From Aliarcobacter thereius LMG 24486 (lineage in GTDB: Bacteria; Campylobacterota; Campylobacteria; Campylobacterales; Arcobacteraceae): a stretch of 64,000 nt of DNA. A program made the position numbers and the translations under genes. Shown one piece after another: positions 3-49,749 of the stretch. Within the stretch, counting starts at the first letter, position 1. The number at the start of each line of letters is the position of its first letter. The notes under the pieces were generated by a model. It searched no databases, was not told the origin of the DNA, and worked only from the letters and a program-made list of their open reading frames with translations. Location of the stretch: positions 310,001 to 374,000 of the forward strand of contig NZ_CP035926.1 in NCBI RefSeq assembly GCF_004214815.1, in the 5' to 3' direction.

Positions 3-953
3 GCTGGAAAAGGATTTGCAGTTGTAGCCCAAGAAGTAAGAAACCTTGCAAATAGAAGTGCAGAGGCTGCTAAAGAGATTAAAAATATTGTTGAGATTGC
101 AACTTCTAAAGCAAATGAAGGAAAAAATATTGCAAGTAGTATGAAGCTTGGATATTCAGAACTTAATAAAAGGATAGATGAAACAATAGTATTAATAGAA
201 GATGTTTCAAGAGGAACTAAAGAAGAAGAGATAGGAATTCTTCAAATTAATGACACTATAAATGTACTAGATAGAGTTACTCAAGTAAATGCTGGTTCTG
301 CAAGAACAATAAGTACTTTAGCAAGAGAAGCTTCAAGTTTATCTGATAATTTACTAAAAATTGCAGATAGAGCAAAGTTCAAACAAGTTGACCCAAAAAG
401 TATAGATGATATTGATTTAGTTTTTAAGATCTCTAAATTAAAGAATGATCATATTAAATTTAAGTTAGAAAATTTTGATAAAGTAGGTCAAACAAAAGTA
501 GCTTGGCAAGTTGAAAATGATTTAGAGTGTGATTTAGGTAAATGGATTGCAGAACAAGAACAAAAATCTATGAATTTTGTTAAAAAAGATTATTGGAAAG
601 AGCTAAAAAAACATCATGAATTAGTTCATAAAAATGTTCAAGAGTATATAAATGAAGATTGTAAACAAGAACCAGATAGCCAAAAATTAAAATCATATTC
701 TATTGAATTAGATAATTCAACTGTTGAAGTTTTTAAAGCTTTGGATAGAGTTAAAGTTGATAATATAGGAAAAGATGAAGTTTTAAATACAAAACAGGCT
801 CAAAAACAGATAGAAAAGCCTGAAATAAATAAAGAAAAACAAGATTTAGAAACTATAAAAATAGATGTAAAAGATGTAAAGATTCTTGAGAAAACTGAAA
901 AAAAACAAGAGTTTAAATCAAATTCAAATGATGATGAATGGGAGAGCTTTTAA
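3..953 (+). CDS. Methyl-accepting chemotaxis protein, 3' part, with CZB domain
   Basis: The reading frame is open from base 3, so the 5' end of the gene lies outside the window. The first residues (AGKGFAVVAQEVRNLANRSA) are the conserved signalling hairpin tip of chemoreceptors, which docks CheA and CheW in the cytoplasm. It is followed by a CZB (chemoreceptor zinc-binding) domain at about bases 440-640: DHIKFKLENF, ECDLGKWI and KKHHELVH supply the His/Cys/His/His zinc ligands. A Lys/Glu-rich, probably disordered linker of about 90 residues follows, and the protein ends EWESF, which fits the xWxxF pentapeptide that tethers CheR/CheB in some receptors. CZB receptors are known to sense zinc or hypochlorite; the ligand here is unknown. 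The ATG at 141 is internal, not the start. Confidence 0.93.
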   Translation, partial: AGKGFAVVAQEVRNLANRSAEAAKEIKNIVEIATSKANEGKNIASSMKLGYSELNKRIDETIVLIEDVSRGTKEEEIGILQINDTINVLDRVTQVNAGSARTISTLAREASSLSDNLLKIADRAKFKQVDPKSIDDIDLVFKISKLKNDHIKFKLENFDKVGQTKVAWQVENDLECDLGKWIAEQEQKSMNFVKKDYWKELKKHHELVHKNVQEYINEDCKQEPDSQKLKSYSIELDNSTVEVFKALDRVKVDNIGKDEVLNTKQAQKQIEKPEINKEKQDLETIKIDVKDVKILEKTEKKQEFKSNSNDDEWESF

Positions 954-961
954 AAGCTCTC
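942..961 (+). terminator. Perfect 20-base palindrome over the chemoreceptor stop codon
   Basis: GAGAGCTTTT is followed directly by its exact reverse complement. The TAA stop (951-953) sits in the centre. There is no clear T-run after it, so it is a weak terminator candidate or a transcript-end stabiliser. Confidence 0.35.
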
Positions 962-1005
962 TTGACTTAAAAAACTTACAAACTTAATCTTTATCAAAAA
1001 CAAGA

Positions 1006-1011
1006 TACAAT
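1006..1011 (+). promoter_or_regulatory. Putative -10 box for the U32 gene
   Basis: TACAAT in the context GATACAATAT, 52 bases before the ATG at 1063. The same GATACAAT string precedes purE. A second box, TGCTATAAA (-10 at 1037-1042), lies closer to the gene and cannot be excluded. Confidence 0.4.
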
Positions 1012-1062
1012 ATCCCCTTAAAATAAATTAATATGCTATAAAAATAATCAAAGGAATCTTAT

Positions 1063-2352
1063 ATGAATAAGCAAAAAGTAGAGTTGCTTAGCCCAGCTGG
1101 GAATTTAGAAAAATTAAAAATTGCTATAAATTATGGTGCAGATGCTGTTTATGGTGGAGTTAGCCACTTTAGTTTAAGAATTAGAGCAGGAAAAGAGTTT
1201 ACATTTGAAACATTTAAAGAAGGTATTGAATATGCACATGCAAGAGGTAAAAAAGTATATGCAACAATAAATGGCTTCCCTTTTAATTCTCAAATAGAAC
1301 TTTTAAAAAAACATATTATAAATATGGCAGAAGTAAAACCAGATGCATTTATAGTTGCAGCACCTGGAGTTATTAAACTTTGTAGAGAATTAGCTCCACA
1401 AATACCAATTCATGTATCAACTCAAGCAAATGTTTTAAACTATCTTGATGCACAAGTTTATTGGGATATGGGAGTAAAAAGAATAATTGCAGCTAGAGAA
1501 ATATCATTAAAAGATATAAAAGAGATAAAAAAGCATTTACCTGAAATGGAGATTGAAATTTTTGTTCATGGTTCTATGTGTTTTGCATATAGTGGAAGAT
1601 GTTTAATAAGTGCTGTTCAAATGGGAAGAGTTCCAAATAGAGGTTCATGTGCAAATGATTGTAGATTTGAATATACACTTTATGCTGGAAATGAAGAGCA
1701 TGGAAGTCTGTTTAGACTTGAAGAGGAACCAGGAGTTGGAACATATATTTTTAATTCAAAAGATATGAATCTTGCAAGTCATATAAAAGAGATTTTAGAT
1801 ACAGGAGCTGTTGATAGTTTAAAAATAGAAGGAAGAACAAAATCACCATATTATGCAGCGGTAACTGCAAAAGCATATAGAGAAGCTATTGATGACTATT
1901 TTGCAGATAATTTTGATGCAGAAAAATATCAAAGAGAGTTACACACTACAAAAAATAGAGGATTTACAGATGCTTATTTGGTTCATAGACCATTTGAAAA
2001 AACAGATTCTCAAAACCATGCATATGCTTTAAGTAAAGGAAGTTATGAAGTAACAGGACTTGTGAGTGAAGATGAAGAGCATTTTTACTGCAAATACAAA
2101 GTTTATCCAAATGAAGATATTGAAATATTTACTCCTCATAATACAGTTTTAGATACTTGTGATAATGAAATCGGGAAAATATTTAAAAAAGATGATGGAT
2201 TGTATTATATAAATTTCAAAAAGATTTTAACTGATACAAATAAAGAGCTTGAAAGTGTTCATAGTGGAAATATAAATAAAATACAACTTCCTTGTAAATT
2301 ACCATATTTAACAATGTTTAGAATAAAAAATGAAGAAGTAAATATAGAATAA
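1063..2352 (+). CDS. Peptidase U32 family protein, TrhP/YegQ-like tRNA hydroxylation factor
   Basis: 429 residues, the usual length for the family. The N-terminus VELLSPAGNLEKLKIAINYG and the U32 signature EIFVHGSMCFAYSGRCLIS (about residues 166-184) are intact, as is the cysteine-containing GSCANDCRFEY that follows. E. coli TrhP (YegQ) is required with prephenate-derived chemistry for 5-hydroxyuridine at tRNA position 34; the Helicobacter homologue was earlier named PrtC, a collagenase, which is probably a misassignment. I infer a tRNA-modification role rather than secreted proteolysis, since there is no signal peptide. It has its own upstream gap of 109 bases with promoter-like boxes and is followed after 2 bases by the next gene, so the two are co-transcribed. 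Confidence 0.88.
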   Translation: MNKQKVELLSPAGNLEKLKIAINYGADAVYGGVSHFSLRIRAGKEFTFETFKEGIEYAHARGKKVYATINGFPFNSQIELLKKHIINMAEVKPDAFIVAAPGVIKLCRELAPQIPIHVSTQANVLNYLDAQVYWDMGVKRIIAAREISLKDIKEIKKHLPEMEIEIFVHGSMCFAYSGRCLISAVQMGRVPNRGSCANDCRFEYTLYAGNEEHGSLFRLEEEPGVGTYIFNSKDMNLASHIKEILDTGAVDSLKIEGRTKSPYYAAVTAKAYREAIDDYFADNFDAEKYQRELHTTKNRGFTDAYLVHRPFEKTDSQNHAYALSKGSYEVTGLVSEDEEHFYCKYKVYPNEDIEIFTPHNTVLDTCDNEIGKIFKKDDGLYYINFKKILTDTNKELESVHSGNINKIQLPCKLPYLTMFRIKNEEVNIE

Positions 2353-2354
2353 AA

Positions 2355-3608
2355 ATGATTTTTTTTAGAGTTACAAATAGTATAAATATAAAAATAACAG
2401 ATGGTTCTATTTTAAAATATGATAGATTTAAAGCACCTGTAAATATTGAAAATGAAACAGTATATATTACAACTTATGATGATTTCCAAGATTTAAAAGA
2501 GATTTTTGCAAAAGTAGATAAAAATAGATATAGTGCAAAAGTTGTAAATGAGGATAGTGTAAGAGATATTCAAAGCTTTCCTATTGAATTAGGAGTTAGT
2601 TTTAAAGGTGAACAAAAATTAAGATATGAAATAGGAGATATTAGTTTTTTAGAATTAAAAGAGCAAGAACTATTAAATAATCTTAAAAGTTTTCATAAAT
2701 CTAGTATAAAAGTTGCAGTAATAGGAAGTTTGGGAGATACTATTAGTAAAATGATATCTTCAATGGCAGCACTTAGAATTTTTTATGAAAAGCTAAAAGA
2801 GATTTATAAAAATGTTGATTTAGATATTTTTATAAAAGCTTCAAATAATAGCTATTTTAATAGAGATAAAAGTATTTACCAAACACAAAAATATATAAAT
2901 AATATCTATCCACTTTCAACAAATACAAAAGCTTTTTGTCAATATGATTATTTTGTGGATAATAGTATTGATATAAGTAAAAATTTAGATATAAATATTG
3001 TTGATGCATGGCTTTATAAGTTTGGAATAGATTATAAAAAAGTTAATAATCTAAATAAATATTCTGAGATAAATATTGATAATTTTGAATTAACAAAAGA
3101 TTTGAAGAATCAAATAGAGAAAGCAAAGAAAAGAGGTAAACTACTATTATTTCATCCATATAGTGCAAGTATAAATAAATCAATACCACAAAACTTTGCT
3201 ATTGAGATATTAAAAGCATTAATTGATAAACTAGATGATTATATAATTGTTTCAACACTATTGATTGATCCAAAAATAAAATCAGATAATTTTGTAGATT
3301 TATCATCTTATTCAAAAACAATTGAGGATTTTATATATATTGTATCATCAATGGATAAAGTTTTAACAGCAGAAACTTCAGCACTTCATATTGCAGATTC
3401 ATTTATGATTCCAACTCTTTGTATATCAACAAATGATGATGAAAATATTATGAAGTATTATAAAAATACAAAGAGTATATTTGTAAAAGATAGTTCAAAA
3501 AATTTATCTAAATTTATTTATGAAAATGATCTTTTAACTATCAATAAATTTGAAGAGTGGAAAAAGCTTAAGATAGAAGATATTATAAAAATATTAGAAA
3601 GTTTTTGA
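2355..3608 (+). CDS. Putative GT-B glycosyltransferase (family 9/heptosyltransferase-like)
   Basis: 417 residues, starting at ATG two bases after the U32 stop. The C-terminal half looks like a heptosyltransferase (GT9) donor domain: LLLFHPYSAS at about residue 261 followed by NKSIPQNFAIEILKAL, and AETSALHIADSFMIPTLCIS at about residue 337, which corresponds to the conserved 'D-T/S-G/A-x-x-H-x-A-x-A-x-x-x-P' stretch that binds the sugar nucleotide. The N-terminal half is poorly conserved and I do not recognise it. There are no membrane segments, so a cytoplasmic or peripheral enzyme is likely. The acceptor and sugar are unknown; its location next to tRNA and purine genes does not help. It could also be a non-catalytic homologue. 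Confidence 0.55.
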   Translation: MIFFRVTNSINIKITDGSILKYDRFKAPVNIENETVYITTYDDFQDLKEIFAKVDKNRYSAKVVNEDSVRDIQSFPIELGVSFKGEQKLRYEIGDISFLELKEQELLNNLKSFHKSSIKVAVIGSLGDTISKMISSMAALRIFYEKLKEIYKNVDLDIFIKASNNSYFNRDKSIYQTQKYINNIYPLSTNTKAFCQYDYFVDNSIDISKNLDINIVDAWLYKFGIDYKKVNNLNKYSEINIDNFELTKDLKNQIEKAKKRGKLLLFHPYSASINKSIPQNFAIEILKALIDKLDDYIIVSTLLIDPKIKSDNFVDLSSYSKTIEDFIYIVSSMDKVLTAETSALHIADSFMIPTLCISTNDDENIMKYYKNTKSIFVKDSSKNLSKFIYENDLLTINKFEEWKKLKIEDIIKILESF

Positions 3609-44821: not shown

Positions 44822-45385
44822 ATGATTTTAAATTATGAAGAGGTAAATGATTTAAACAGATATAAAATTATGTCAGGAACTATTGTTCCAAGACCAATTG
44901 CATGGATTGTAACAGAAGATGATGGAGTTTTAAATGCAGCACCATTTTCTTATTTTATACCAATTTCTACTAATCCAGCACTTGTAATTGTAGCAATTGG
45001 AAAAAAAGATGATGGAACACCTAAAGATAGTTTAGCAAATATTTTAAAAAATAAAAAAGCAACTATTTGTTTTCCAAATAAAGAAAATTATGAAGAAGTT
45101 CAAAAATGTGCTACACAACTTTGTAAAAATGAGAGTGAAATAGAAAAATATGAGATTGAAGTTAGAAAAGAGCTAGATGATTATCCAGCAATGATATCTT
45201 CAACACAAACAGCACTTTTTTGTGAATATTTTGATACATATAAAATTGATGGAGATACAACTCCTGTTGTTTTAAAAATAAATTATCAATATATTGAAGA
45301 TGATAGAATAAATGAAAGAAATCACACAAAAATTGAGAGTTTAGGAAGAGTTGGAATTACTTTTAAAGCCATGGTAGATTTATAG
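44822..45385 (+). CDS. Flavin reductase-like split-barrel protein
   Basis: 187 residues. YKIMSGTIVPRPIAWIVTED with LNAAPFSYFIPISTNPALVI is the FMN-binding split-barrel N-terminus (flavin_reduct family), and DSLANILKNKKATICFPNKE follows. Members are FMN reductases or FMN-binding proteins of unknown partner. It stands alone between an MFS gene and a convergent operon, so context does not point to a partner oxygenase. A strong shared terminator follows. Confidence 0.82.
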   Translation: MILNYEEVNDLNRYKIMSGTIVPRPIAWIVTEDDGVLNAAPFSYFIPISTNPALVIVAIGKKDDGTPKDSLANILKNKKATICFPNKENYEEVQKCATQLCKNESEIEKYEIEVRKELDDYPAMISSTQTALFCEYFDTYKIDGDTTPVVLKINYQYIEDDRINERNHTKIESLGRVGITFKAMVDL

Positions 45386-45390
45386 TTTTA

Positions 45391-45424
45391 AGATAAAAAT
45401 CTGCTAAAAAGTAGATTTTTATCT
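45391..45424. terminator. Bidirectional terminator hairpin
   Basis: AGATAAAAATCTGCT and AGTAGATTTTTATCT pair as a 15-base stem (one G-T pair) around AAAA, with A/T tracts inside both arms, between the convergent flavin-binding gene and mnmA. It overlaps the mnmA stop by two bases. Confidence 0.75.
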
Positions 45425-46457
45425 AGTATGTACTTTTTATAAAAGCACTTCCTAATACTTTATTATTATCATAAAATACAGCTAGTTGACCACTTGCAAC
45501 TCCAAATGCTGGTTCTTTTAGATTAATGATTGCTTGATTATCAATAATTTCAACATCACAAGGAGTAGAATTACTTCTATATCTTAATTTCACAGCACAT
45601 GAAAATTTTGTCTCATCAATATACATATTCAAACTTTCACATAAAACTTTATTTACCTCTAAAGCAGGTCTTTTACCAACAACGATAGTATTGTTATTTG
45701 GATTTAATTTTGTTACAAAATGTGGCTCTTGAGCACCTTTTACAGTGAAGCCTTTTCTTTTTCCTATTGTATAGTGAGCATAACCTTTATGTTTTCCTAC
45801 AACATTTCCAGCTTCATCTAAAACATCACCTTCAATATCTATTTTTGCGTGTTTTTTTATAATATCTGTATAAACTGTTTCTACAAAACATATCTCTTGA
45901 GATTCATTTTTTTCTGTTATTCTTTTATAAGCAAGATCAATTTGTGCACCCATTTTTACAATATCTTCTTTCTTATATGAATTTAAAGGAAATAACATAA
46001 AAGGAAGAGCTTCTTTTGGAATTTGTGATAAAAAATAGCTTTGATCTTTTGATAAATCATCAGCAAGATAGAAAAAGTTACCATCTGTTTTTGCATAGTG
46101 ACCAGTTGCTAAAAATGAAGCTCCTTGTTCTTTCGCAAAATCAAGCATTGCACCAAATTTTATATTTCTATTACACTTAACACATGGGTTTGGAGTATTC
46201 CCTTCTAAATAAGAGTTTATAAAATAGTTATAAACTTCTTCATTAAATTGTTTTGATAGATCTAATATATGATATTTTATACCAAGGAATTTTGCTACAT
46301 CATCAATATCTTTTAGATTTGATTCATGGTAACCATCTGTTCTATTATGTAGTTTTAAATAAATTCCTTCTACTTCATAACCCTCTTTTTGTAATATATA
46401 TGCGGTAACAGAAGAGTCAATTCCACCACTCATTCCAAGCATAATTTTTTTTGACAT
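45423..46457 (-). CDS. mnmA: tRNA 2-thiouridine synthase MnmA, campylobacterial type
   Basis: 344 residues. PP-loop GMSGGIDSSVTAYILQ; first catalytic Cys in TPNPCVKCNRNIKFG; second, the persulfide Cys, in ESQEICFVE; C-terminal YTIGKRKGFTVKGAQEPHFV and LKEPAFGVASGQLAVFY. This form, with NPCxxCN and the ICFVE motif, matches my memory of Campylobacter MnmA closely. It activates U34 of Lys/Glu/Gln tRNAs with ATP and inserts sulfur. A second MnmA of a different type (46472-47575) lies directly upstream, so one is probably redundant or specialised. The start has AAAGGAAT upstream. Confidence 0.93.
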   Translation of the reverse strand: MSKKIMLGMSGGIDSSVTAYILQKEGYEVEGIYLKLHNRTDGYHESNLKDIDDVAKFLGIKYHILDLSKQFNEEVYNYFINSYLEGNTPNPCVKCNRNIKFGAMLDFAKEQGASFLATGHYAKTDGNFFYLADDLSKDQSYFLSQIPKEALPFMLFPLNSYKKEDIVKMGAQIDLAYKRITEKNESQEICFVETVYTDIIKKHAKIDIEGDVLDEAGNVVGKHKGYAHYTIGKRKGFTVKGAQEPHFVTKLNPNNNTIVVGKRPALEVNKVLCESLNMYIDETKFSCAVKLRYRSNSTPCDVEIIDNQAIINLKEPAFGVASGQLAVFYDNNKVLGSAFIKSTY

Positions 46458-46471
46458 TATCTATTCCTTTT

Positions 46472-47575
46472 TTATTTGTAAAAACTTATAAAACCACCAC
46501 CAAGACAATAGTTACCAGAATATAAAACAAGACTTTGACCTAGTGTTACAGCTCTTTGTGGATTATCAAATTCCACAACTACTTTTTCATTATTTAAGTC
46601 AATTACTGTACAAGTTTGTTTTTGTTGTCTATATCTAACTTGTGCTATTAATTTATCACCAATTTTCGGTAATTCTTCTAATACCCAGTGCATATCTTTT
46701 GCCTCTACAATTTTACTCATAAGTAAAGGATGATTTGTATCTTGAACAATTGTTAAAGTATTATTTACTACATCTTTTGCTGCAACATACCAAGGTTTAT
46801 GTGTATTGTTTTCACTTTCATTATCCTTAATCCCACCTAGACCAATCCCTTTTCTTTGTCCTAATGTATAACAAACTAAACCTTTGTGTTTTCCTAAAAC
46901 TATTCCATTTTCATCAATAATATCTCCTGGAATAGCTTTTAAATGTTGTGTAATGAATTCATCAAATTTTTGATTACCAATAAAGCAAATCCCTGTACTA
47001 TCTTTTTTATCACTAACAGGTAGATTATGAAGTCTAGCAATTTCTCTAACCTCTTTCTTTGTTAAATCTCCAAGAGGAAACATAGCTTGTGATAATTGTT
47101 CACTTGATAATGCATGTAAAAAATAACTTTGATCTTTTGAATTATCTTTTGGAGTATCAAGTACAAAATGTTCTTTGTACTTAGCAATTTTTGCATAATG
47201 ACCAGTTGCAATCATATCTGCACCCATATTCTTTGCTTCATTTAAAAATACATTAAATTTTATCTCTTTGTTGCACAAGATATCTGGATTTGGTGTTAGA
47301 CCTTGATTTAAACCTTCTAAAAATATATCAAAAACTCTATCTTTATACTCTTTAACAAAATCTTTTCCAATTACTTCAATACCTATTAATTCACCAACTC
47401 TTTTGGCATCTTCAAATTCTATACGATTAGGACATTGACTACCTTTTATTCCATACTCCCAATTTCGCATGAATAGTCCAACAACATCATAACCTTGCTG
47501 TTTTAGCAATAAAGCAGTCACAGATGAATCAACTCCACCTGACATTCCTACTACAATTTTTTTATTTTTATTCAT
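46472..47575 (-). CDS. mnmA: tRNA 2-thiouridine synthase MnmA, E. coli type
   Basis: 367 residues, like the E. coli protein (368). PP-loop VGMSGGVDSSVTALLLKQQG, TPNPDILCNKEIKFNVFL with the catalytic Asp and Cys, DSTGICFIGNQKF with the persulfide Cys, YTLGQRKGIGLGGIKDN and the ending LGQSLVLYSGNYCLGGGFI are all canonical. It is complete and apparently active. It is the upstream partner of the other mnmA, 14 bases apart, and follows folK by 32 bases. One of the two is likely acquired by transfer or retained from an ancient duplication; base composition looks the same in both. Confidence 0.94.
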   Translation of the reverse strand: MNKNKKIVVGMSGGVDSSVTALLLKQQGYDVVGLFMRNWEYGIKGSQCPNRIEFEDAKRVGELIGIEVIGKDFVKEYKDRVFDIFLEGLNQGLTPNPDILCNKEIKFNVFLNEAKNMGADMIATGHYAKIAKYKEHFVLDTPKDNSKDQSYFLHALSSEQLSQAMFPLGDLTKKEVREIARLHNLPVSDKKDSTGICFIGNQKFDEFITQHLKAIPGDIIDENGIVLGKHKGLVCYTLGQRKGIGLGGIKDNESENNTHKPWYVAAKDVVNNTLTIVQDTNHPLLMSKIVEAKDMHWVLEELPKIGDKLIAQVRYRQQKQTCTVIDLNNEKVVVEFDNPQRAVTLGQSLVLYSGNYCLGGGFISFYK

Positions 47576-47607
47576 TTCTTACCTTTAAAAAGTTCATTTT
47601 CAGAACT

Positions 47608-48090
47608 TTATTTTTTCATATATTTTAAAGGAATAATCACGGATTCTCTATTTGCCCAATTTTTGTGAGGAATAATAAGATTTTTTGTATTTATTTTCTT
47701 ATCATCAAAAAATATAATATCTATATCTAAGGTTCTAGGCGCATCTTGAAAGGATCGCTTTCTTCCAAATTTATTTTCATATCTTTGCATCGCTTTTAGA
47801 AAGTCATTAGGGCAAAGATTAGTTTTGAGTAAAATTATACCATTTAAAAAATCACTTTGTTGTAAAAAACCAAATGGAGGGTTTTTTAAAATGGGTGATG
47901 TCATAAGTAAAGTAAATCTTGTATCCTTTTTCAGACATAAGATTAATTTATCAAAAATAAGTTTTGTATTTCCAATATTTCCCCCAATTCCAATAGTTAC
48001 AAGATGTTTCATCAAAGAACTATTATTGAATTTTTTTGGAAAATTAGAATTATAAAAAAGTGTTAATTCAGGACTCAAAGTTTTTTTCAA
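47608..48090 (-). CDS. folK: 2-amino-4-hydroxy-6-hydroxymethyldihydropteridine pyrophosphokinase
   Basis: 160 residues from TTG. HPPK motifs: LVTIGIGGNIGNTKLIFDKL, NPPFGFLQQSDFLNGIIL and DAPRTLDIDIIFFDDKKINT. The enzyme makes the activated pterin for folate synthesis using ATP. A start at an ATG at residue 27 would give a conventional HPPK, but the 26-residue N-terminal extension seems conserved in relatives as I recall, and AGAGAGAAA lies before the TTG. In Campylobacter and Helicobacter folK is next to flhF; here the two are 17 kb apart. Confidence 0.92.
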   Translation of the reverse strand: MKKTLSPELTLFYNSNFPKKFNNSSLMKHLVTIGIGGNIGNTKLIFDKLILCLKKDTRFTLLMTSPILKNPPFGFLQQSDFLNGIILLKTNLCPNDFLKAMQRYENKFGRKRSFQDAPRTLDIDIIFFDDKKINTKNLIIPHKNWANRESVIIPLKYMKK

Positions 48091-48175
48091 ATTTCTCTCT
48101 TTTTTCGCAAAAAAACTAAAATCTAGTAAAATAGTATGGAATTATTTTTTTGCAAATTTTAAATATCCTCATATT

Positions 48176-49198
48176 TTATAATATTTTTGCTTTACCATTT
48201 TGTATGCAAACTGTATCTTCTATTCTAACTCCAAATTCATTTGGCAAATAAATACCAGGTTCTATCGTAAATACCATATTCTCTTCTATTATTTGTTCAT
48301 TTCTACTATTTATATTTGGGAATTCATGAATATCAAGACCAACACCATGACCTGTGCTATGAACAAAATATTTACCATAACCAGCTTGACTAATATAATC
48401 TCTAGCAATTTTATCAACTTCAAAAGCTTTCATTCCAGATTTTGTCTCTTTTATAGCTTTCTCTTGAGCAGAAAGTACAATATCGTATATTTTCTGATAT
48501 TTACTATTTTTAAACTTTTGTTCTCTTTTAAAAGAGAAATTTGATGAATTCATATTACTTGTACAAGTTCTATCAGTACAATATCTTCTAAATTTTATTC
48601 CAGCATCAACTAATAAAATATCATTCTTTTTTAAACTCTTTTTTGTAGGAAGTGCATGAGGTTTTGCTGCGTTTTCATTTATTGCAACAATTGCATCAAA
48701 AGAAGTATCATATTTTGCTTTTTTACTCATTGCTTTATAGCACTCAAAGCTAAGTGCTTGTTCACTTTTATTTATGCCATTCTTAGCTATATATTTTGCA
48801 AATGAGTTGAATCCATCTCTTCCTAATTGAGAAGCTTTTTTTAAAAGTTTTAATTCATAATCAGTTTTTATTACTCTTTTTTCTTTAGAGAAATTTATCT
48901 TTTCTTCAATATTTATATCAAGATTTTCTAAAAGTTTTCTATACTCTAAAATTGTAAAATCAATTGGATCTAAAATAAGACTTTTTATATTATTCTTTTT
49001 TAAAATACTACTAGCACAACTTATTAAATCATTACTTTCAATAACTTCACAATTTTTACTATACTCTTTTGCTTCAATTGTATATCTTGCATCTGTAATA
49101 AAAAATTTTTCACTTCCAAGATTTAAAAAAATTGCATTATCACAAGAAAATTTTGCTTCATAATATATTGCATTTTCATTTTTTAAAATATAATTCAT
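48176..49198 (-). CDS. M24-family aminopeptidase (Xaa-Pro peptidase-like)
   Basis: 340 residues. An N-terminal creatinase-like domain (to about residue 120) is followed by the M24 catalytic domain with the five metal ligands: VDAGIKFRRYCTDRTCT (Asp pair), HSTGHGVGLDIHEFP (His), TIEPGIYLPNE (Glu) and GVRIEDTVCIQNG (Glu). Two metal ions, usually Mn or Co, are expected. Specificity for Xaa-Pro is by family. It is the first gene of a minus-strand operon diverging from aroQ; folK follows after 85 bases. Confidence 0.9.
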   Translation of the reverse strand: MNYILKNENAIYYEAKFSCDNAIFLNLGSEKFFITDARYTIEAKEYSKNCEVIESNDLISCASSILKKNNIKSLILDPIDFTILEYRKLLENLDINIEEKINFSKEKRVIKTDYELKLLKKASQLGRDGFNSFAKYIAKNGINKSEQALSFECYKAMSKKAKYDTSFDAIVAINENAAKPHALPTKKSLKKNDILLVDAGIKFRRYCTDRTCTSNMNSSNFSFKREQKFKNSKYQKIYDIVLSAQEKAIKETKSGMKAFEVDKIARDYISQAGYGKYFVHSTGHGVGLDIHEFPNINSRNEQIIEENMVFTIEPGIYLPNEFGVRIEDTVCIQNGKAKIL

Positions 49199-49236
49199 AG
49201 AACTTCCCTTTATAGTAGCTTTAACAAAAATTTAAA

Positions 49237-49242
49237 TATAAT
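49237..49242 (+). promoter_or_regulatory. Putative -10 box for aroQ
   Basis: TATAAT in TTTAAATATAATCTTACC, 30 bases before the aroQ ATG, in the 74-base divergent gap with the M24 peptidase gene. AAAAGGAAA serves as ribosome site. Confidence 0.5.
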
Positions 49243-49272
49243 CTTACCTAAAATTAATAAAAGGAAAATAAT

Positions 49273-49749
49273 ATGAAAATAGCAGTTATACAAGGACCAA
49301 ACTTAAATATGTTGGGTGTTAGAGAACAACATATTTATGGTGCTATGACTTTAGAACAAGTTCATAATAATTTAGATACAGCAGCAAAACAAAATGGTGT
49401 AGAATTGGAGTTTTTTCAATCTAATCTAGAAGGTGAAATAGTTGATAGAATTCAAGAATGTTTAGGAACTGTTGATGCTATTATGATAAATCCAGCTGCA
49501 TATTCTCATACTTCAATAGCAATAAAAGATGCTTTAAGTGCTGTAAATATGCCTGTTGTAGAAGTACATATTTCAAATATTTATAGAAGAGAAGAGTTTA
49601 GACAAAAAAGTATTACAGCAAGTTCAAGTGCAGGAATTATTTCAGGATTTGGAACATTTGGTTACCACTTAGGATTAATCTCTTTAATTCAAATTGTAAA
49701 TGAAGTTAAAGCTATAAATGAAGCAAGAGCAAAAGAAGAGAATAAATAG
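49273..49749 (+). CDS. aroQ: Type II 3-dehydroquinate dehydratase
   Basis: 158 residues. [20 protein letters not shown] carries the catalytic tyrosine (the Y of YG), [20 protein letters not shown] the substrate loop, and [17 protein letters not shown] the catalytic His/Arg region. The enzyme makes 3-dehydroshikimate in the shikimate pathway. The product of the next gene works in menaquinone synthesis, which also draws on chorismate, so aroQ and mqnF are linked metabolically as well as by position. Confidence 0.97.

Follow-up and report, generated by a model that had tools for sequence, protein, structure and literature searches.

Adjacent D-type and C-type MnmA genes at the folK locus of Aliarcobacter thereius and other Arcobacteraceae

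Two MnmA types in one locus

Why would a genome keep two neighbouring genes for the tRNA-modifying enzyme MnmA? The window, i.e., the whole stretch of 64,000 nucleotides from Aliarcobacter thereius LMG 24486 that was analysed, contains such a pair. A sequence-only reading had placed both genes in one operon, assigned them to different lineages, and considered that one of them might be specialised for a subset of tRNAs, use another sulfur donor or be a recent replacement in progress. Re-reading of the window gave the same coordinates, strand and motifs for the pair, and the features of the locus are as follows.

45423..46457, minus strand: mnmA_C, C-type MnmA of 344 aa with C92-x-x-C95 and C190; resident type in the reading proposed below
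46458..46471, minus strand: 14-bp gap separating mnmA_D from mnmA_C, as in the loci that have no folK fragment here
46472..47575, minus strand: mnmA_D, D-type MnmA of 367 aa with C48, D98-x-x-C101 and C197; acquired type in the same reading
47608..48090, minus strand: folK (HPPK), upstream neighbour of mnmA_D
47626..47660, minus strand: island 2, the folK 3' end, which is also kept in folK fragments (coordinates set by eye)
47738..47766, minus strand: island 1, 29 bp inside folK

The gap between folK and mnmA_D is 32 bp and that between mnmA_D and mnmA_C is 14 bp; from strand and spacing we infer that the two mnmA genes lie in one operon. Both products exceed the NCBIfam MnmA cut-off of TIGR00420 (412 bits for the D-type and 328.7 bits for the C-type, against 236.95) and the curated cut-off of NF001138, and both have the three Pfam MnmA domains PF03054, PF20259 and PF20258 over cut-off. 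Motif reading and alignment confirmed that the PP-loop SGGxDSS and the two catalytic cysteines are intact in both proteins, the mnmA_D product showing SGGVDSS, TPNPDILCN and KDSTGICFIG, and the mnmA_C product SGGIDSS, TPNPCVKCN and NESQEICFVE. The two proteins share 37% identity in the alignment and are the only MnmA matches over cut-off in the source genome (1.915 Mb, one contig).

A 2024 review (PMC11784392) gives the MnmA classes of Shigi as D-type, C-DxxC-C, and C-type, CC-CxxC-C, and describes for Campylobacter and Helicobacter a C-type variant that lacks the first CC region. The window D-type has D98-I-L-C101; C48, C101 and C197 are present in all 56 aligned D-types of the family, and the NPDILC motif in 57/57. 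The window C-type has C92-V-K-C95, with C92, C95 and C190 present in 79/79 aligned family C-types, and no column upstream of C92 holds Cys in more than 50% of these 79 sequences. With its CxxC and the Cys further downstream, and without a conserved Cys ahead of these, this protein represents the Campylobacter/Helicobacter variant, but it occurs together with a D-type, and some relatives lack it or carry a broken copy. The D-type has its motif set and domains in common with the E. coli D-type MnmA (2der, phmmer 8.4e-107; also 2hma), whereas it adjoins a C-type enzyme in a family where TusE was not found. Its relatives at 90–92% identity, among the matches listed, belong to vandammei, vitoriensis and cryaerophilus (Arcobacter/Aliarcobacter) and to uncultured Aliarcobacter. 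The two classes are thus already known, and what is added here is their side-by-side occurrence; among the papers listed in the literature searches, which covered few subscription journals, none dealt with a pair of MnmA enzymes in Arcobacter.

The separate ancestry of the two proteins was assessed in a tree of 106 MnmA, comprising 17 D-types and 27 C-types of Arcobacteraceae picked from those available, 4 proteins from one other family of the order and 58 from loci of the wider searches (one protein is present twice, as L075 and L310). All D-types form one clade (51/51, FastTree support 0.999), the Arcobacteraceae C-types form a clade of their own (support 0.97), and constraining the Arcobacteraceae D-types and C-types together costs 115.8 lnL units. 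The D clade and the constraint cost bear out the earlier assignment of the window proteins to different lineages. A simple local duplication followed by divergence, which would explain why the genes are adjacent and would place both side by side in the tree, is contradicted by the tree and by the constraint comparison; as the Cys sets of the two types differ as well, we rule out this origin, as far as this tree allows, as extremely improbable.

Distribution, exchange and selection

An MnmA match is present in all 397 sampled genomes of the phylum. Within the family, the D-types have at least 78% identity to the window protein, with lower values only for incomplete or damaged copies. A hand count gives such a D-type in 59/104 Arcobacteraceae genomes, in two of them only as pieces at contig ends, and in 20 of the 31 genomes of the window's genus; the pair is therefore not the old, ordinary feature of all campylobacters that the sequence-only reading had named as an alternative. 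Outside Arcobacteraceae, the matches listed at E < 1e-120 in the 397-genome sample number 15, all from one genus, and 14 of them were read at the locus as NPCALCN, i.e., C-type; at this threshold, lower-scoring D-types outside the family are still possible. Two MnmA over cut-off occur outside the family in just 1/21 genomes of a sample chosen for near D-type relatives and in 2/61 genomes of a second sample, in agreement with the earlier statement that bacteria normally have one MnmA. The Clostridiaceae MAG G464, which is common to both samples, resembles the window in having one D-type and one C-type in the same genome; its two genes lie on different contigs, unlike the adjacent window pair. 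A further D-type, 48% identical, was seen on a 3.5 kb contig of G313 from another genus (L161, C151), and is either a separate gain or contamination.

The state of the locus was read in 85 of the 104 family genomes, selected by us with the other 19 left out. Both types are present in 51 of them, only the C-type in 28, among them the nearest relative of the window (G106), and six have only the D-type or a broken C-type. In every locus with both types that was read, mnmA_D stands between folK and mnmA_C. The outer genera read are all C-only, with folK followed by the C-type gene (G313 is counted here despite its distant D-type). Among the crown C-only loci, folK and mnmA_C overlap or are at most 6 bp apart in 10/13, as judged by eye, the exceptions being G106 (~100), G376 (~93) and G424 (~33). 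The D-type is missing from several crown genomes that keep the C-type (G106, G290, G314 and others). The spacing from mnmA_D to mnmA_C is mostly at most 23 nt, or at least 168 nt with a folK fragment; it is intermediate in G411, G412 and G432, and the negative values for G291 and G395 are an artefact of locus orientation.

Five genomes are D-only, namely, G444, G445, G450, G454 and G441, with assembly completeness of 96, 98, 100, 88 and 74%, respectively. Behind their D-type gene, G445 and G441 retain a C-terminal C-type remnant of 67–68 residues (43% and 51% identity). An insertion of ~2.6 kb (L294:3054-5641) interrupts the mnmA_C of G008 after codon 222; it holds two ORFs, which we take to be an IS21-type transposase and an ATPase. 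This genome is a natural knockout of mnmA_C beside an intact mnmA_D.

Several other arrangements were seen at the locus. In genus g4, folK and mnmA_C are apparently fused in one frame, of 545 aa in G134 (L158:2990-4627), and the open frame at the C-type measures 524 aa in G456 and 527 aa in G458. FolK contributes to the synthesis of folate, which MnmEG uses in modifying the same U34, so that the link of folK and mnmA_C in g4 may be functional. In G417, ~2.8 kb separate folK from mnmA_C in a different arrangement (L201, ~723-3504 after orientation) with presumably MutS2-like and MogA-like ORFs. G106 has an ORF of 409 aa, presumably an IS110-like transposase, between pepQ and aroQ, near a diverged folK segment (L145:5723-7632).

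In the RpoB tree, some nodes of which are weak, the C-only genera lie outside and the D-type is patchy in the crown; the tree of D-types crosses genus lines relative to it. For example, the D-type of G272 is at a distance of 0.058 from those of G395/G434, which belong to another genus, but at 0.110 from that of G255, a member of its own genus; the C-types of G272 and G255 are 0.062 apart. The D-type of G373 is closest to that of G411 from another genus. Together with G397 and G404, G373 belongs to a largely C-only group of genus g1, and the D-types of all three fall outside the g1 D clade, with weak support (0.433) for the placement of G404. They are 0.12–0.13 from G369 and 0.06–0.08 from one another and from genus g3, and could represent one gain or several. 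Over the family, a single early gain followed by numerous losses and a few transfers would fit as well as many gains. The direction of the D-type transfer is argued from its distribution; no donor was found, the closest D-types outside Arcobacteraceae, among the matches listed, being 46–51% identical. By RpoB, G106, which has no D-type, is the nearest relative of the window genome (p-distance 0.005). Since these two genomes differ by 0.062 in pepQ, 0.087 in folK and 0.102 in mnmA_C, recombination has probably replaced the pepQ-folK-mnmA_C segment in one of them.

Mean p-distances relative to RpoB are 1.2x for the D-type and 2.0x for the C-type, and the C-type protein evolves at the same rate with or without a D-type (slopes versus RpoB of 1.89 and 1.93). 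In 10/12 pairs of genomes with both types, not all of them independent and with G395/G434 left out, dN/dS is lower for mnmA_D than for mnmA_C. For mnmA_C itself it ranges within 0.04–0.35 in these 12 pairs and within 0.04–0.13 in 7 C-only pairs, two of them with saturated dS; the medians of 0.12 and 0.07 do not differ significantly (p 0.076). These values indicate purifying selection on both genes where both occur and, with the unchanged C-type rate, both look like working genes. A general decay of mnmA_C in genomes with both types is supported neither by the protein rates nor by the dN/dS comparison. The suggested replacement in progress is thus supported across the family, where the C-type is absent or broken in 6/85 genomes, but not as a clear decay of the C-type where the D-type accompanies it.

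Conserved islands in folK and a candidate leader

The 23-nt core of island 1 (at most 2 mismatches) was found in 72/104 genomes, never in more than two copies per genome, and is lacking in the C-only crown genomes G424, G240 and G203. In 19 genomes, the second copy stands behind mnmA_D within a block of the folK 3' end. Comparison in 17 of these 19 (G358 and G395 were unmatched by pattern or orientation) shows 95% identity to the folK copy over 31 nt, versus 55, 55 and 49% in the flanks. Codons for conserved FolK residues are more uniform inside the islands than elsewhere in 71 crown genomes (p 0.0002) and in the 16 C-only crown genomes (p 0.003), both p values being optimistic owing to the kinship among the genomes and to the setting of island limits after inspection of the fragments. 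Island 2 ends in a stretch complementary to a Shine-Dalgarno-like sequence; such a stretch with a downstream partner is present in 42/52 D-type leaders, 17/18 fragment leaders and 13/14 C-only leaders.

We aligned 13 of the 18 fragment leaders (L053, L054, L060, L061, L062, L165, L167-L170 and L173-L175), leaving out the fresh fragments of G303, G373, G404, G446 and G447. The alignment contains both islands, preserved where the rest of the folK fragment has decayed, and a helix, P1, and a TATAAT promoter-like site is located behind mnmA_D in 12/13 leaders. For P1 combined with a long-range helix, three measures lie above the values of all 500 shuffles: 94.2% of cells are paired (90.2 in shuffled alignments), 6 cells are changed on both sides (1.7 shuffled), and the covariation score is above that of 500/500 shuffles. 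Covarying pairs number 3 against 1.4, a value reached by 30/500 shuffles, and the pair types are not unusual (194/500 shuffles as high). The long-range helix by itself has no two-sided change in this alignment, and the covariation term of RNAalifold on the fragment alignment is unfavourable (+0.65). In seven loci, a search with 4227 Rfam models found nothing up to E 5; in the window at 45000-49300 it gave one match, of E 0.92, below the gathering score and outside folK.

The islands are thus a probable candidate for a cis element of mnmA expression. We tentatively extend this to a fuller scenario, which we hold to be possible rather than likely, in which a leader RNA within the 3' coding end of folK would act in cis to control mnmA of the crown Arcobacteraceae; on arrival of the D-type, a folK fragment with this leader would have been left before mnmA_C, where it would have decayed to the two islands and gained a promoter and hairpin of its own. 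If this is true, mnmA leaders could set the dose of both enzyme types, e.g., by hiding the ribosome-binding site.

Other roles of the repeated segment were considered. The copies flanking mnmA_D suggested that island 1 could be an integrase attachment site, which was left unproven because the similarity to folK extends upstream of island 1 in several fragments (G397, G446). Judged by eye, an integrase gene would not fit into the inserts of 1.3–1.6 kb, and viral_contigs contains no exact match to the core pattern. A small peptide encoded by the folK fragment was rejected, its frames differing by eye between genomes.

Sulfur supply and the origin of the pair

TusE (DsrC family, PF04358) was found in 0/104 family genomes, with the E. 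coli control matched, so that the family D-types lack the TusE by which an E. coli-like relay would be recognised. A TusA-like match is present in 43/104 genomes and missing from 27/59 genomes with a D-type, including G187, G345 and G373 (hand count), which rules out that the D-type depends on TusA. With no TusE and TusA often missing, the D-type must take its sulfur by a shorter route, and we infer a direct persulfide transfer from cysteine desulfurase, as described for Bacillus YrvO and MnmA, which work without a Tus relay according to PMC11784392. The D-type and the C-type would then use different sulfur donors.

We propose, with a probability of about 0.78, that the window represents one stage of an in-place acquisition of a D-type MnmA beside a resident C-type. 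The older arrangement would have been that of the outer genera, folK followed by the C-type gene. A D-type gene from outside the family would have entered between the two and duplicated part of the folK 3' end, of which fragments are observed; the gene would then have been inherited and also passed between genera, as the trees suggest. Its absence from some crown lineages, and the lost or broken C-type of others, are observed. Given their intact catalytic residues, both enzymes most likely make the 2-thio group on U34 of tRNA-Lys, -Glu and -Gln. They probably differ in handling sulfur, the C-type via a three-cysteine [4Fe-4S] site and the D-type by direct persulfide transfer, and a genome with both genes may thereby maintain s2U34 when Fe-S clusters are lost. 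A foreign homologue displacing a resident gene in place is a known concept. The locus resembles it in that an incoming homologue stands beside a resident gene that decays in some lineages; in contrast, most genomes read here keep both genes, and the incoming D-type is itself missing in many.

Three further readings compete with in-place acquisition and differ in what the second enzyme would do. One is that the two enzymes act on the same tRNAs under different conditions, the C-type when Fe-S clusters are available and the D-type under oxygen or iron limitation. This agrees with the retention of both genes under selection and with the three-cysteine set of the C-type, tied to [4Fe-4S] in Thermus according to PMC11784392, the D-type having Asp at one of these places. 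Catalase is also commoner with the D-type over the family (31/59 versus 11/45 genomes, hand count), an excess that kinship alone could explain since it is not clear within genus g1 (14/20 with and 6/11 without the D-type, hand count with two of the six partial); an oxygen link via catalase was therefore set aside, and we regard such a conditional pair as possible but doubtful. Somewhat less probable, and in our view unlikely, is that drift following the arrival of the D-type leads to displacement of the C-type, genomes with both being a passing state. All stages do coexist, with the C-type absent or broken in 6/85 genomes, and the stronger constraint on the D-type in 10/12 pairs points the same way, but the supposedly passing state is the commonest one read (51/85), and several crown genomes lack the D-type rather than the C-type.

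If labour were divided lastingly between the two, each enzyme would thiolate its own part of the U34 tRNAs. Such a division would account for the purifying selection on both genes in the 51/85 genomes that keep them, and the C-type protein rate, not raised by the D-type, fits it as well. In contrast, 28/85 genomes have only the C-type, 5 only the D-type and 1 a broken C-type, some of them among close relatives. One enzyme must serve all tRNAs in these genomes, or the loss is tolerated, which makes specialisation on tRNA subsets improbable. Given the existence of both C-only and D-only genomes, together with purifying selection, either type seems able to stand alone. Under in-place acquisition, the most fitting reading of the pair is that of a second enzyme which is imported, mobile and partly redundant.

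Arcobacteraceae thus offer, within one family where TusE was not found, genomes with the C-type only, with the D-type only and with both at one locus, which allows a comparison of the two chemistries between closely related genomes. This is relevant to the open dispute, as presented in PMC11784392, over whether the D-type MnmA works without an Fe-S cluster or, in E. coli, needs a [4Fe-4S] cluster. The genomes also form a natural series that illustrates the exchange of a tRNA-modifying enzyme.
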